Shown here piece by piece: positions 7,259 through 31,947 of a DNA stretch of 32,880 bases. The number at the start of each line of letters is the position of its first letter. Position 1 is the first letter of the stretch. The notes under the pieces are model-generated. The model did no database searches. It saw only the letters and a list, made by a program, of their open reading frames with translations, and was not told where the DNA came from. Where the stretch lies: NCBI GenBank assembly GCA_030066155.1, contig JASJCE010000010.1, positions 1-32,880 of the forward strand, written 5' to 3'. The stretch is from Desulfobacterales bacterium (GTDB lineage Bacteria; Desulfobacterota; Desulfobacteria; Desulfobacterales; JAFDCJ01). Both the position numbers and the translations under genes were made by a program.

Positions 7259-7630
7259 ATGATGTATGAGCTAAAGGTCGTCACCAAATTCGCGGCGGCG
7301 CATCAACTCACCATGGTCGGATCAAAATGCGAAAATATGCATGGTCACAACTGGAAAATTGAGGTCCATGTAAGGGGGGAAATGACCGACGAGGCGGGTG
7401 TCCTCGTGGATTTCGGCATTATCAAAAAGCACGTCCGAGACATCATGTCCATGCTCGACCATAAATATCTCAACGAGCTCGAATACTTCCAGCAAACTCA
7501 ACCGTCGTCGGAAAACATCGCCTTCTTCGTTGCCACCGAGCTGCAAAAAAAGATAGACAATCCGACTGTCAGCGTCAGTCGGGTCACCGCCTGGGAATCA
7601 GACGACGCCGGAGCCACGTACATCGTATAA
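7259..7630 (+). CDS. queD: 6-carboxytetrahydropterin synthase / 6-pyruvoyltetrahydropterin synthase family
   Basis: CENMHGHNW (CxxxHGH), DFGIIKKHV, LDHKYLNE, SSENIA, WES; SD aaggag upstream. Confidence 0.92.
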   Translation: MMYELKVVTKFAAAHQLTMVGSKCENMHGHNWKIEVHVRGEMTDEAGVLVDFGIIKKHVRDIMSMLDHKYLNELEYFQQTQPSSENIAFFVATELQKKIDNPTVSVSRVTAWESDDAGATYIV

Positions 7631-7661
7631 ATGACTATTGAATAATGAATATTGACTAATT
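7631..7661. repeat. Degenerate heptanucleotide tandem repeat immediately after queD stop
   Basis: ATGACTA TTGAATA ATGAATA TTGACTA ATT..., starting at the base after the TAA. Confidence 0.7.
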
Positions 7662-7726
7662 GTGGTAGTCGCTCTCCGAGGCGTAGGCGCTACAATCCCT
7701 ACGAGCCGGAGGCTGCGCTCCGTCAG
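7662..7726. repeat. 65-bp GC-rich stem-loop element flanked by 10-bp direct repeats TTGACTAATT
   Basis: TTGACTAATT at 7652-7661 and 7727-7736; interior has CTCCG-agg-CGTAGG...CCTACG-agc-CGGAG. Confidence 0.5.
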
Positions 7727-7747
7727 TTGACTAATTTAAAAAGATAG

Positions 7748-7789
7748 CATTCCTTCATTTTTCATTTGTCAATTGTCATTTTTCATTTT
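7748..7789. repeat. Degenerate heptanucleotide tandem repeat overlapping the 3' end of pyrE
   Basis: CATTCCT TCATTTT TCATTTG TCAATTG TCATTTT TCATTTT; pyrE stop (7776-7778) and its last codons lie inside the array. Confidence 0.75.
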
Positions 7790-8345
7790 CGAGCTCTTTC
7801 CAGCGCTCGATCAGCTCATCGCGATTGATGATCCAACTCACATCATCTACTTTTTCCCGGATATTATCAAGCCCCCCCTCCTGACGGTCGACTAGGATGA
7901 CGGACTTTACGACTTCCAGTCCTTCTGATTGGGCTCGATCAATCGCCTTGATGGTGGATCCGCCGGTAGTGGCAACATCATCAATGATTGCAACCGGCTG
8001 TCCCACCTGAATGTCACCTTCAACCCAACGGATGATGCCGTGATCTTTTTGAGTTTTGCGTATGGAGAATGCATTTATCGGCTCTCCGTTCATCTCGGAT
8101 GCAAACGCGGTGGCCACTGCTAACGGATCAGCTCCAAAGGTCAGCCCGCCGACGCCGACCACCCCGCTGCCTCTGAGTGCGTCAAATAGGAGGTGTCCGG
8201 CCAGATACATGCCCCGTGCACTCAAGGTGGTTGGTTTGCAGTTGACGTAAAAACGGCTGAGGCGGCCGGAAACCAGCTTGAAGACCGGCTCTTCACTGTA
8301 TTTGAACGATTTGCGGCAAAGTATATCGATCAGTTCCCGTTTCAT
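7776..8345 (-). CDS. pyrE: Orotate phosphoribosyltransferase
   Basis: 189 aa; PRTase signature [42 protein letters not shown]. Confidence 0.93.
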
Positions 8346-8451
8346 AAATGGATTCGCATTCCCCTTCTAATGACCTGTGGTTAGAAAAATGGATTGCAGA
8401 TATTCCTGCTGTTTCGGTAATGAAGGCGATTATAAAATTGATAGAATACCG

Positions 8452-8486
8452 CCATTATTCATTCTTCAAGCTTCAATATTCATTTC
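8452..8486. repeat. Short heptanucleotide tandem repeat
   Basis: CCATTAT TCATTCT TCAAGCT TCAATAT TCATTTC. Confidence 0.6.
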
Positions 8487-23503: not shown

Positions 23504-23540
23504 AAATTGATAATTTGGGATGCAGAAACGCATTCAAAAG

Positions 23541-23603
23541 CGAATATCGAATCAGGAATATCGAATCCTGAACACTGAAACCTGAAACCTGCAATTCCTG
23601 AAA
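23541..23603. repeat. Degenerate heptanucleotide tandem repeat, 9 units
   Basis: CGAATAT CGAATCA GGAATAT CGAATCC TGAACAC TGAAACC TGAAACC TGCAATT CCTGAAA. Confidence 0.8.
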
Positions 23604-23647: not shown

Positions 23648-24769
23648 ATGGCCCTGAGTCTAATGGAAGGCAACGAAGCTATCGGCCGGGGGGCGATGGC
23701 TGCCGGATGCCGCTTTTTTGCGGGTTATCCGATCACGCCGGCAACAACAATTCTAAACACAATGCTGTCGCTGCTGCCGCCCCGGGGCGGCATTTGTTTG
23801 CAGGCCGAGGATGAAATTGCATCGATTGGCGCCTGCCTGGGGGCTTCCATGGCCGGTTTAAAGGTCATGACGGCCACTTCCGGTCCGGGTATAAGCCTCT
23901 ACAGCGAGCATATTTCCTTCGCTGTCGGCAGTGAAATTCCAATCGTTATAGTCGATGTGCAGCGACTTGGCCCGTCTACGGGATCGGCAACCCGCGGGGC
24001 CGACGGCGATATCAATTTCCTGCGCTGGGGATGCAGCGGCGGCATGCCCGTCATCGCTCTGGCTCCTGTCAACATCGCCGATTGCTTCACCCTGACGATT
24101 CATGCGTTTAATCTGGCCGAACAGTTTCGCTGCCCGGTATTCATTGCATCCAATAAAGAAATCGCGATGACCCGGGAAAGCGTCGATCTAAACGCCCTCG
24201 ACAAACCCGATATCATTGACCGCAGTCGGGCCGCAGAGGACGTGCCGTTTCTGCCCTTTCAAATTCGCGCCAATCAACAGGTGCCGGATTTTCTGCCAAT
24301 CGGTGCAGCCACCCCGGTTCGCCAGACCTCATCTACCCACGGTGCAAACGGATATATCACAATCGATCAAGATGAAATTTCGCGCATGCAGCAGCGCCTC
24401 AAAACCAAGTTGGAAGCAGCGGTCGACGGATTTTCCTATTATGAATTTCTCCCGGAAGAGGGTGCCGACACGCTGCTGATCAGCTACGGTGTCACCGCCC
24501 GGGCCGTCAAAGCGGTCTATCAAGATTTAAAGAATACGAGTCGACCGGCAGCCGCACTGATTCTTAAAACACTCTGGCCGGTGCCCACCGACGTCATCCG
24601 ACGGGCGGCCGGAGATGTCGACCGGGTGCTGGTGGTCGAAATGAATCTGGGCCAGTATGTTTCAGAAATTCAGCGCATTTTGCCGGACCACCAGGTCGAT
24701 TTCTACGGTCAGATGGATGGGCGCTTGATTCCGCCCCATAAAATAAAGGAAACCCTGATCAATGGTTAG
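23648..24769 (+). CDS. 2-oxoacid:acceptor oxidoreductase alpha subunit (KorA-like)
   Basis: GYPITPATTILNTM, EDEIASIGACLGASMAGLKVMTATSGPGISLYSE, DVQRLGPSTGSATRGADGD. Confidence 0.92.
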   Translation: MALSLMEGNEAIGRGAMAAGCRFFAGYPITPATTILNTMLSLLPPRGGICLQAEDEIASIGACLGASMAGLKVMTATSGPGISLYSEHISFAVGSEIPIVIVDVQRLGPSTGSATRGADGDINFLRWGCSGGMPVIALAPVNIADCFTLTIHAFNLAEQFRCPVFIASNKEIAMTRESVDLNALDKPDIIDRSRAAEDVPFLPFQIRANQQVPDFLPIGAATPVRQTSSTHGANGYITIDQDEISRMQQRLKTKLEAAVDGFSYYEFLPEEGADTLLISYGVTARAVKAVYQDLKNTSRPAAALILKTLWPVPTDVIRRAAGDVDRVLVVEMNLGQYVSEIQRILPDHQVDFYGQMDGRLIPPHKIKETLING

Positions 24770-26060
24770 CTTGCTCAATGACTCCAGACCGCCGGTTTTT
24801 TGTCCCGGCTGTTCCCATGAGAGAATTACCCGTAGCCTGGACGACGCGTTTCAAAAAATGGATCTATCCGGCGGGCAGATCGTCATCGTCAGCGATATCG
24901 GCTGCTCAGGTCTGTTCGACACATTCTTCATTACCCATGCCATGCACGGTCTGCATGGCCGCGCGCTGACTTACGCGGCCGGTTTAAAGCTGGCGAGGCC
25001 GGAGTTGAAAGTTGTGGTTACCATGGGAGACGGCGGCCAGGGCATCGGCGGCGCCCACCTGCTGGCCGCCTGCCGGCGCAATCTGGATATCACCCTGCTG
25101 ATTCTGAACAATTTCAACTTCGGCATGACGGGCGGTCAGTTTTCGGCCACCACCCCGATGGATGCCCGGGTTGGCTCAGCATTTTTAAATCAGCTGGAGC
25201 GCCCCCTGGATATCTGCCAGGTTGCACGGTCAGCCGGGGCCGCCTATGTCACCCGCTGCTCCGGATATGGTAAAGATTTGGCTGTCGAAATACAGCGGGC
25301 CATTGAATTCGAGGGATTTGCCGTTCTGGATATCTGGGGGATCTGCCCGGGTCGCTATACCAAAAAAAACCGTCTGACGCCGAAAGGCATTGAAGAAGCT
25401 CTCGCCAAAATGGATCCCATCGAAGGCATTGTGACTGAAAATTCTCGCCAGGAATACGGCCGCCAATACCGTCAATTGGCCGGTTCACTGCGTCCCACCG
25501 CCGAGCCGCCTGCAATCGAAGCCAGATTTCAACCACTTGATTCCCAACGGCGGGAAGTAATCCTACTCGGCAGTGCGGGACAGCGAGTCATTACCGCTGG
25601 TGAAATATTTTGTCTTGCCGGACTAACTGCCGGCCTGAAAACAACCCAGAAAAACGAATATAATATAACGGTTCTGCGCGGCCCATCCATCAGCGAATTA
25701 ATCCTCTCCCCGGAAGAAATCAATTACACCGGCATCGAAGCCCCGGACGTCGTTATTGCACTCGATCAGGAAGGGGTTGACCGTCGCCGGGACGTGTTCC
25801 GCGCGTTGGACGGCCAGTCCATGATCCTGCAGGCCGATGGCGTCGAGGTGCCGCCCGGCAACACCCGAATTCATCAAATGAATCTGAAATCCCAGAAAAT
25901 AAAAAAACCCGACTGGGCCCTGGCCTCTCTGGGCGTAATCGCAAAAATCGGCCGGATCATCAGTACGGAAATGCTGGAAGCGGCACTGGCCATACGCTTC
26001 AAAGACAAGATGCTGGAATCGTCCTTGGAGTTGATCAGGAAGGTGGAAACCGGCGCATGA
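24762..26060 (+). CDS. 2-oxoacid:acceptor oxidoreductase beta-gamma fusion (KorB-KorC-like)
   Basis: Beta: FCPGCSHERI, VSDIGCSG, GDGGQGIGGAHLLAACRRN, NNFNFGMTGGQ. C-terminal about 170 aa gamma-like: VILLGSAGQRVITAGEIFCLAGLTAGLKTTQ...VLRGPSISELILSPEEI...PDVVIALDQEGVDR. 8-nt overlap with the alpha gene. Confidence 0.88.
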   Translation: MVSLLNDSRPPVFCPGCSHERITRSLDDAFQKMDLSGGQIVIVSDIGCSGLFDTFFITHAMHGLHGRALTYAAGLKLARPELKVVVTMGDGGQGIGGAHLLAACRRNLDITLLILNNFNFGMTGGQFSATTPMDARVGSAFLNQLERPLDICQVARSAGAAYVTRCSGYGKDLAVEIQRAIEFEGFAVLDIWGICPGRYTKKNRLTPKGIEEALAKMDPIEGIVTENSRQEYGRQYRQLAGSLRPTAEPPAIEARFQPLDSQRREVILLGSAGQRVITAGEIFCLAGLTAGLKTTQKNEYNITVLRGPSISELILSPEEINYTGIEAPDVVIALDQEGVDRRRDVFRALDGQSMILQADGVEVPPGNTRIHQMNLKSQKIKKPDWALASLGVIAKIGRIISTEMLEAALAIRFKDKMLESSLELIRKVETGA

Positions 26061-26270
26061 GGTTTCAGGTTTCGGGTTTCGGGTGTCAGGAGACAGAGGG
26101 TTTCAATTTCGGATTTTAGATTGCGGATTGCGGATTGAAGGGGCGAAGTGCAGAGAGCGGATGGCAGAAAAAGATTGTTGTTTTTTGTTATTCGTTATTG
26201 GTTATTAGGATTATTAGACTGATCAGACAGCATACCATAATTCGCCATTCGACAATCGTCATTCGTCATT
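26061..26270. repeat. Heptanucleotide-phase degenerate repeat array A (about 30 units)
   Basis: GGTTTCA GGTTTCG GGTTTCG GGTGTCA ... CGGATTT TAGATTG CGGATTG CGGATTG ... GTTATTC GTTATTG GTTATTA ... CGCCATT CGACAAT CGTCATT CGTCATT, all in one 7-nt register; begins on the base after the TGA at 26060. Confidence 0.85.
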
Positions 26271-26312
26271 CTTAACGCCCTATACCTATTTTTCTCACCC
26301 ATCATCCGGGCT

Positions 26313-26336
26313 TCCTGGCCTCCCAGCCTCCCAGCG
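26313..26336. repeat. 8-nt tandem repeat (3 units)
   Basis: TCCTGGCC TCCCAGCC TCCCAGCG. Confidence 0.6.
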
Positions 26337-26354: not shown

Positions 26355-26399
26355 AACTCAACAAACACAACAAACTCAATAAACTCAACAAACTCTATA
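26355..26399. repeat. 9-nt tandem repeat (5 units)
   Basis: AACTCAACA AACACAACA AACTCAATA AACTCAACA AACTCTATA; last unit contains the stop codon of the 26395-27828 CDS. Confidence 0.85.
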
Positions 26400-27828
26400 G
26401 CCTAGCAAGAAAGCTCTCCGCCTGGGGAATGATATCATGATCCGGGTATTTCCGGAGCAACAGGTCCAGCGCTTTTATAGCCTGCTCCCGGTTCATCAGG
26501 CGATCATGAAAGATCTGGGCAATCCGAAAATAGGCTTTGGGCACCAGAGGGTTGTCCGGATATGATTTGGCAATTGTGTTGTAGACCGCTATGGCGGCTT
26601 TGGTTTTACCGGTTTCATTCAGCCACCCGGCGACTTTGAACAGGGCGGCGGCCGTCGGACAAAAACCCGGATCGGCCATCCGGCACTCGGTAAATACGGC
26701 AATCGCCTTTCTTTTTTCGCTTCCCTCCGTCAGAAGGTCCAGATGCCTTACGGCGTGTTCCGAGAGTTCCGGCCTGCGTTTTTTCATTTTGAGTAGATTG
26801 TAATATCGCTCGGACAGCTTGATCCCGCTGATGGGTGTCTCGGCCGTCATTGTCTGGATCAGCTTGATGGCTTCATCCAGTTTACCTTCTCTGATCAGGG
26901 GTTCGGCCCTGCCGAGAATTGCCGCATCCGGGTCAAACTTGGGTGTTTCGTAGGTTTCCGCTGCCGGATCCATAAAATCCTCAAAATCGACCTGATACCC
27001 GATTCGATCATGGTACTGCAGGATCACATACCCCATCAAGTGGTAGGAAATGATCGTGTAAAAATTCTGGGCAAAACTGAAGAGCATCGGGTGCACGTCG
27101 GCCGGCAGGAACCGGATAATATACTGCGCCAAAAATGCAGGTGCGCTTCCCAGCAGGAATAGAAAAAAGTACATTAAAAAATAGGCCCAGCCGATTCTGA
27201 ATGTCAGGCCGACAAATACAGCCGGATTGATGGCTTGGAGAAGACTGCCGGTCGTTACCAGAAGGATAATCATTGAGGGTACGAAAAAGAGTGCCGCGAT
27301 CAGGAATGCAAAACCCAAAAGAACGCCGGCTTTGGCACTGATATAGGCAAACCCGATAAAAATCAGCAGATAAATCGCAAACTGCTTGAATACCTGCACG
27401 ATATCATCGGAAATTGTCTGGGTGTTGACGGGAGGCGGCTTCAGGTTCCCGCTGGCCGTAGCCTTGAGCGACTCGAATGAATACTTGAGAATCATCAGCC
27501 ACATTGCCCCCTGTAGAAAGGAGCCGATGAAGCCGATTTCAGCCAGAAACGGGGTGGCGATGGACAGGATCGATATGAACATCAACGGCTGCAGCGATAG
27601 CGGATAGGTAAAAATACGTGGCATACGGTTCCAGAACGGCTCAATCAGATTCTGCAGACCAACCCATTTCACGGGCAGATTGCATTTTTGGCAAAAATGA
27701 TAGACGACTGTTTTACCGTAATTCTCACTTTCGCGTGCAGAAACGCATTCAGGGCACATCAATCCATCGCATTTCGGACAATGCCAATGGGCTTTGCGGG
27801 TGGGATGCCCCATGCAAAATTTTTTCAT
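26395..27828 (-). CDS. Membrane protein with N-terminal Cys/His zinc-ribbon/B-box-like motif, multi-TM domain and C-terminal TPR-like repeats
   Basis: CMGHPTRKAHWHCPKCDGLMCPECVS...FCQKC; several hydrophobic helices; C-terminus AIKLIQTMTAETPISG...AAALFKVAGWLNETGKTKAAIAVYNTIAKSYPDNPLVPKAYFRIAQIFHDRLMNREQAIKALDLLLRKYPDHD. Confidence 0.8.
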   Translation of the reverse strand: MKKFCMGHPTRKAHWHCPKCDGLMCPECVSARESENYGKTVVYHFCQKCNLPVKWVGLQNLIEPFWNRMPRIFTYPLSLQPLMFISILSIATPFLAEIGFIGSFLQGAMWLMILKYSFESLKATASGNLKPPPVNTQTISDDIVQVFKQFAIYLLIFIGFAYISAKAGVLLGFAFLIAALFFVPSMIILLVTTGSLLQAINPAVFVGLTFRIGWAYFLMYFFLFLLGSAPAFLAQYIIRFLPADVHPMLFSFAQNFYTIISYHLMGYVILQYHDRIGYQVDFEDFMDPAAETYETPKFDPDAAILGRAEPLIREGKLDEAIKLIQTMTAETPISGIKLSERYYNLLKMKKRRPELSEHAVRHLDLLTEGSEKRKAIAVFTECRMADPGFCPTAAALFKVAGWLNETGKTKAAIAVYNTIAKSYPDNPLVPKAYFRIAQIFHDRLMNREQAIKALDLLLRKYPDHDIIPQAESFLARL

Positions 27829-31555: not shown

Positions 31556-31793
31556 GGCATTCGGCTTTCGACCATCGGTATTCGATTTTTGATTCGCCGT
31601 GCGCTCTCTGCCCTTTGCTCTTAGCCCTCTGCACTAAGCCCTCCGCTCAGTCCGTTAATACCAATAACGAATAACCAATAACAACAGCCCCTTTCTGTCT
31701 TCTGCCCTATGCGCTATGCCCTTCGCCCCTTCAATCCGCAATCTAAAATCCAAAATTGAAACCCTCTGCCCTCTGTCATCTGTCATCTGCATG
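31556..31793. repeat. Heptanucleotide-phase degenerate repeat array B1 (about 34 units), partly an inverted copy of array A
   Basis: GGCATTC GGCTTTC GACCATC GGTATTC ... CCTTTGC TCTTAGC CCTCTGC ACTAAGC CCTCCGC ... CCAATAA CGAATAA CCAATAA ... TGCCCTA TGCGCTA TGCCCTT CGCCCCT TCAATCC GCAATCT AAAATCC ... CTGCCCT CTGTCAT CTGTCAT. Confidence 0.85.
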
Positions 31794-31856
31794 CCGCGGC
31801 GAACCTCGACTTGTTGGGTCGTAGCTGAAAGCGAAGCCTAAAGAGCGAAGACCGGT

Positions 31857-31947
31857 CCTCTGTATTCCGTCATCTGACTTTTGTCGTCTGTCGTCTGTCA
31901 TCTGTCATCTGTTATCTGACAACAGTCATCTGACAACAGTCATGCGA
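31857..31947. repeat. Heptanucleotide-phase repeat array B2 (13 units) running into the transporter CDS 3' end
   Basis: CCTCTGT ATTCCGT CATCTGA CTTTTGT CGTCTGT CGTCTGT CATCTGT CATCTGT TATCTGA CAACAGT CATCTGA CAACAGT CATGCGA. Confidence 0.85.

Follow-up and report, generated by a model that had tools for sequence, protein, structure and literature searches.

Heptanucleotide array A of a Desulfobacterales bacterium is a patchwork of hairpin arms, probably left by decayed mini-elements

Array A, a region of degenerate 7-nt repeats in the genome of a Desulfobacterales bacterium, is a patchwork of partnerless arms from several families and not a single drifting repeat. It most likely consists of decayed, nested mini-elements of a MITE/REPIN-like kind, a graveyard of hairpin arms that have lost their partners, with slippage as a minor process. 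Here we describe this region within the window, which is the whole stretch of 32,880 nucleotides that was analysed (GCA_030066155.1, contig JASJCE010000010.1), together with related sequences in the host genome and in other genomes. In one well-sampled family we established the build and copy number of the elements, the inverted orientation of their arms, their conserved inner motifs and their potential to fold; the inner motifs, a and b, also adjoin arms of other words.

Introduction

Many bacterial genomes have an excess of heptanucleotide repeats, for which polymerase slippage has so far been the main attribution. Most of the heptads described here are fixed arms of hairpin elements dispersed in the genome, and this gives them a different and testable origin. 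This rarely described hairpin-arm design may be a source of many bacterial heptanucleotide repeats.

Genome sample and short-period segments

The host genome is a fragmented MAG of 543 contigs with 5% contamination. The sample drawn from it comprised about 0.92 Mb, with 487 gaps and 135 kb of intergenic sequence, about 20 of its contigs having been picked for array-A hits. In its intergenic DNA, lags 7, 8 and 9 gave 248, 59 and 34 segments, compared with 2, 0 and 1 in shuffles; the remaining lags gave almost no segments, the harmonic at 14 excepted, and coding sequence held very few lag-7 segments. Forty contigs outside the array-hit selection agreed, with 152, 41 and 30 segments at lags 7, 8 and 9 and only 1-4 at lags 5, 6 and 10-12. 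Arrays were present in 15% of divergent, 34% of tandem and 28% of convergent gaps, and their scarcity in divergent, promoter-only gaps may reflect selection against insertion there. No preference of arrays or elements for gene orientation, strand or gene end was found in the sampled gaps.

A universal grammar of heptads was considered, its information being 3.41 against 2.27 in column-permuted controls. Once similar words were merged, this signal was nearly lost (2.14 against 1.91 ± 0.09, the highest control reaching 2.13), and a universal grammar is therefore not claimed. Inversion-type swaps of A/T or C/G were considered and rejected, the substitution spectrum being ordinary with excess transitions.

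Array A and its setting

Array A (26061-26270) starts directly after the TGA of the gene for a 2-oxoacid:ferredoxin oxidoreductase beta subunit (24762-26060) and occupies a convergent gap, the next gene being that of a TPR-like protein (26395-27828, minus strand); 8-nt and then 9-nt repeats lie in the remainder of the gap (Table 1). At a lag of 7 the identity within array A reaches 0.562, whereas dinucleotide shuffles give 0.267 ± 0.033 (z 9.0, 0/1000); its Fourier power at period 7 is 4.56 against 0.81 (0/1000). Among the other lags there is a weak excess at 8 (z 1.9), with no comparable excess at 4-6 and 9-11. Similar sequence was found at 51 places in the host genome and in 15 of 40 related genomes (E <= 0.001).

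The first-pass annotation of this DNA, whose list of heptamers from 26061 matches the sequence exactly, had made its reading depend on a period-7 excess over shuffles and on recurrence elsewhere, and both are present in the figures just given. Its statement that the region is not a simple microsatellite holds, with several words per region and arms of five units in the majority of copies, and array A does look like an undescribed repeat family, as was proposed. The picture of one array in a strict, unbroken 7-nt register, its word drifting in fixed phase, was not borne out: the words named make up only half of the 30 heptamers, the blocks are separately dispersed families, and no register is kept between blocks elsewhere. 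Phase differences between 53 adjacent same-strand arrays were flat over the seven values (7, 7, 9, 9, 5, 7, 9), phase shared by unrelated words being judged only through a common alignment.

Array A resolves into four main blocks of different words, each with BLAST matches elsewhere in the sample (Table 1). The irregular units of the ATTCGTC block recur as fixed spellings (the third unit, CGACAAT in the cut of the first-pass annotation, corresponds to AATCG in most copies), which indicates that the block was copied as a "sentence" and not made by local slippage. Blocks 2-3 have an inverted, paralogous counterpart at 31656-31768, with 1-nt indels between its blocks, and at locus L022 the block order of array A is swapped. 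Blocks 1-3 are known as arms only, with no complete element reconstructed for them, and array A as a whole does not fold (z -0.5).

Table 1. Repeat features of the window; sample matches are BLAST matches in the 0.92-Mb sample
Feature	Positions	Strand	Remarks
a-side arm of nearly complete element, ATTATTC/ATAGTCA words	7632-7658	-	outward is left
a-motif region of nearly complete element	7661-7725	-	nested small hairpin repeat in loop, 7670-7719
b motif GATAGCATTCC and arm of TTCATTT words	7743-7789	+	folds with the a side
Another b end (GATAGAATACC) with CATTATTC/CTTCAAT words	8440-8482	+	
Heptad arms CGAATAT and GAAACCT	23536-23594	+	between two genes
Block 1, GGTTTCA words, family arm	26061-26096	+	26 sample matches; elsewhere often inverted pairs (L017, L027, L048, L059)
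Block 2, GGATTTT/GGATTGC words	26106-26137	+	conserved 30-40 bp arm at 23 sample places; also 31656-31768, minus strand
Weak degenerate tail, GGGCGAA/GTGCAGAG words	26138-26174	+	comes after block 2 in several copies
Block 3, GTTATTC words, arm	26175-26206	+	9 sample places
b motif, variant GACAGCATACC, b-type element end	26226-26236	+	outward is right; partnerless, no matching a-arm on inward side
Block 4, ATTCGTC words, b-end arm of ATTCGAC family	26240-26271	+	38 sample matches; dozens of copies with same unit spelling
8-nt repeat GCCTCCCA, array A gap	26318-26335	+	
9-nt repeat AACTCAACA, array A gap	26355-26395	+	
Second large heptad-arm mosaic	31556-31943	.	includes inverted copy of blocks 2-3

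Architecture of the intact elements

An intact element is 130-340 bp long and consists of an arm, motif b, a core, motif a and then an arm of the same word inverted. This fixed design was read from the best family, AACGTCC, which also supplied most of the structural detail. Motif b is GAYAGAATWCC when read outward, and motif a, present in the complete copies, is GAGCGNAGCG; the latter includes a sequence of the form GC-GNA-GC, and DNA of this form makes unusually stable mini-hairpins. The arms are built of degenerate words of 7, 8 or 9 nt.

The motif b pattern has 202 copies in the host genome, compared with 2 for the reversed-pattern control. On its outer side a 7-, 8- or 9-nt array was present in 41 of 44 intergenic motifs and on its inner side in 5, the baseline for random intergenic sequence being 18%. 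Motif b precedes arms of the words ATTCGAC, TTGGACG, TTCATTT and ATATTCA, of the 8-nt word AATTCCTA and of the 9-nt word TTTAGGCAT; this design, shared by words of three lengths, accounts for an excess at lags 7, 8 and 9 only.

Related arms within one gap formed 44 inverted and 18 direct pairs, against 267:290 for random pairs, and the inverted arms had a median separation of about 110 bp. A strong partner arm lay within 430 bp of 12 of the 44 b ends (3 with shuffled arms). Complete b-core-a elements with matching arms were found at L012, L062, L010, L053 and L042 and, with words of 9 nt, at L036 and L034. Intact elements gave folding z values of -4.5 to -9.5, and the nearly complete element of the window (7627-7790) gave -3.4.

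Copies and inheritance of the arms

Searching with a 281-bp query taken from one element of the AACGTCC family recovered about 19 long copies in the host genome, which are 81-97% identical and lie in different gaps. Several sit at contig ends, as expected because repeats break assemblies. In most long copies the arms are 42 nt long and fixed at five units, and departures are mainly of -7 or -14 nt, the length staying steady even though the copies diverge by up to 19%. Unit spellings differ between the b and a arms, with a likeness of 0.758 within elements and of 0.758 between elements, and b arms compared among themselves reached 0.852. Since belonging to one element makes the two arms no more similar, they appear to be inherited by copying; compensatory change keeping arm pairing within elements was looked for and not seen.

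The elements have the size and copy characteristics of MITEs, being 50-1000 bp long, free of a transposase gene, high in copy number and bounded by inverted ends. No consistent target duplication was seen when the flanks of 20 copies were read by eye. Copy number and the identity among copies suggest mobility, and the dispersal fits whole-element copying with occasional loss of units.

Other genomes

The congeners G005 and G007 have the same neighbouring gene pair as array A with different gap content, consisting of inverted-arm sequences (in G007, AGCTCAT-type heptads, inverted, at both ends, as read by eye), which points to complete turnover at the array A site at such divergence. Arrays are present in genomes of the same genus and of several other families of the order, and AACGTCC arms reach high copy number in some same-genus or same-order genomes. 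Among 297 genomes of the phylum, a draw without other members of the genus, none had a b-motif count near that of the host. One exact 20-mer from block 4 was found in MAGs of Desulfobacteraceae/Desulfosarcina, adjoined by b- or a-like motifs, as well as in MAGs of WOR-3, Planctomycetota and Bacteroidetes, where it is often part of inverted heptad pairs (both read by eye); the matches in these last three groups may represent the same family, convergence or contamination. In G029, from another family of the order, a compact TTACTGG/TTACTCG heptad hairpin with a loop of a few bases was observed (L180 18388-18450).

Search for an enzyme, a parent and a function

A RAYT/Y1 transposase was rejected as the mobiliser: the host has 12 Y1_Tnp genes, and heptad arms lay within 450 bp of one, the other 11 having no nearby arms. 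Matching ends 0.4-9 kb apart, sought in a sample of 14% of the genome, yielded no convincing parent transposon, and whole-genome matches of one family had short spacings only. One integron-integrase gene was detected (L207, G000:C136, 2476-3722) with 315 bits to TIGR02249, above the family cut-off. Because it is interrupted and split into two frames, it is probably a pseudogene, and a search of the C136 contig found no attC-like sites. The Y1 genes, the integron integrase and the end-spacing search of the sample thus gave neither an autonomous parent nor a mobilising enzyme. At the Rfam gathering threshold, the window and seven element-bearing contigs had no match except tRNA and PYLIS.

Some by-products of these searches are recorded here. 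Several Y1-transposase genes (L157, L158, L161) are bordered by repeats of their own (GGGGACGTCC...), unlike heptad arms, as expected of RAYT-like genes. The PYLIS matches are two pyrrolysine insertion elements, PYLIS_2 and PYLIS_3, at L010 9229-9328 and 11103-11202 (minus strand), so that pyrrolysine is probably used in the methylamine methyltransferases of the host.

Origin of array A

In the explanation we favour, whole elements would spread as units in a MITE/REPIN-like manner, inserting in gaps away from promoters. They would land beside or within one another and then shed one arm or decay, and array A would be the product of successive insertion and decay. Copying would be carried out by a transposase or another enzyme acting in trans on the hairpin, with slippage merely trimming units.

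The model of the first-pass annotation was one of in-place microsatellite dynamics, in which slippage expansion, mutation and re-expansion from mutant units change the word while the phase stays. Adjacent units are indeed more alike than units separated by another unit (aab 973, abb 956, aba 596), and 7- and 14-nt unit losses exist between copies. In most surveyed genomes heptanucleotides also outnumber the other long SSR classes, with polymerase slippage proposed as the cause (cited in PMC4679880 and PMC4692102). We nevertheless hold the model to be unlikely, as it does not lead one to expect identical irregular unit spellings at dozens of loci, arms of constant length in such divergent copies, inverted pairing with conserved flanking motifs, or blocks without a common phase. 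The present data weigh against in-place slippage as the main process. What remains of the slippage claim is the rare loss of units between copies; it has left no other trace and is probably a minor process.

Another alternative is that the elements are functional structured RNAs or regulatory hairpins, for example terminators or mRNA stabilisers, under selection that lets the arms take up new words provided that they still pair. Such a regulatory role is made less likely by the absence of strand or gene-end preference and of an Rfam match. The arms of one element also match no better than arms across elements, the orthologous gap of the congeners holds other content, and partnerless ends are numerous. 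These points leave the RNA explanation improbable, even though intact elements fold strongly, arrays are rarer in divergent gaps and the base-pairing degenerate heptanucleotide repeats of the Nostoc tRNA-Leu intron offer a precedent (PMC3488679). A very remote prospect is that the elements are integron attC-like recombination sites, which an integron integrase would move in their folded single-stranded form.

The core sites of attC follow the patterns RYYYAAC/GTTRRRY, which the words GTCCAAC/GTTGGAC of one family fit, and the genome does have its one integrase gene on C136. That gene is interrupted on a contig without attC-like sites, the remaining word families misfit the pattern, and the elements are single and dispersed; neither the cassette arrays nor the active integrase of an integron is seen, and the attC explanation is largely refuted.

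Returning to decayed, nested mini-elements, it is conceivable, though rather doubtful, that they belong to an undescribed superfamily of mobile hairpin mini-elements with interchangeable 7/8/9-period arms and fixed inner recognition motifs, found across the order (probably Desulfobacterota) and perhaps in WOR-3, Planctomycetota and Bacteroidetes MAGs. If true, this would imply a dedicated enzyme and mechanism (e.g. snap-back or templated copying) rewriting both arms together. Constant inner motifs, combined with arms varying in word and period, pose the question of what copies or rewrites the two arms jointly.

Comparison with known repeats

What is new here is that inner motifs which stay fixed are combined with arms that differ in word and period from one family to the next. 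We file the elements as a variant of MITE/REPIN-like small dispersed elements and a member of neither, since the RAYT link was tested and not found. They resemble the REPINs and REP sequences of Pseudomonas and others in that intact elements are many-copy intergenic inverted pairs folding into hairpins and, probably, in that clusters arise by insertion beside existing copies; REPIN singlets have been interpreted as decayed doublets (PMC3116915), much as solitary arms are read here. They differ in that REP cores form a class of fixed palindromic 16-mers and lie beside RAYT transposases, whereas here there are short-word arrays of many families, with a single Y1 gene in twelve near arms.

Like MITEs, including the minisatellite-bearing BrickBuilt of Porphyromonas gingivalis, which demonstrates that a MITE can contain tandem repeats (PMC4596501), the elements are short, non-coding, high in copy number and bounded by inverted ends. 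BrickBuilt carries 23-nt repeats between a leader and a tail bearing the inverted ends, whereas here it is the 7-9-nt arrays that make up the inverted arms, and neither a parent transposon (14% sample) nor a target duplication (20 flanks) was seen. The Nostoc tRNA-Leu intron has degenerate heptads on either side of a hairpin, variable copy number and interrupting extra inserts (PMC3488679); it is a single intron site, in contrast to dispersal genome-wide with inner a/b motifs.

Excerpts of earlier reports describe heptamer direct repeats of TAACTGA in Beggiatoaceae (PMC4679880), GGGAATC in Xanthomonas and GGGGA(T/C)T in Nostoc (PMC4692102) and GGGACCG-type elements in Geobacter metallireducens (PMC2700814). 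These are likewise intergenic and present at many loci, some of those in Xanthomonas in inverted pairs. In the excerpted text they have one main word per genome, mixed heptamers being reported in Microcystis, and no word-independent inner motif or common element architecture is reported there (PMC4679880, PMC4692102, PMC2700814). A heptanucleotide microsatellite of the STRR type has one head-to-tail unit in variable copy number, which is not the structure found here.

Additional dispersed repeats

A GC-rich hairpin repeat of 39-80 bp (CTCCGGCTCGTAGGGG...GCGCCTACGCCTCGGAGA) lies in the motif-a loop of some copies (window 7670-7719; L031, L120, L124, L136-L138, L142, L143). It is missing from otherwise near-identical copies, so that a second dispersed repeat, of smaller size, is seen with its site filled in some copies and empty in others. 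Cyanobacterial small dispersed repeats nest within heptamer arrays and are, by description only, tiny nested repeats like this loop insert. A palindromic module (AGTTTCATATAAGCGCCGCCTCTGGCC-A-rich loop-GGCCAGTCTGATCGGAAAAGAAACT) adjoins many elements of the AACGTCC family at one end or at both (left flanks of L131-L149; right flanks of L144 and L133), and seems to be a separate repeat. Within TCATCTG/CAGATGA arrays, a recurrent non-heptad insert (CCGCGGCGAAGCTCGA...GAGCGAAGACGGGTCC) was observed at 31808-31860 of the window, at L013 9157-9661 and at L037 1628-2127.
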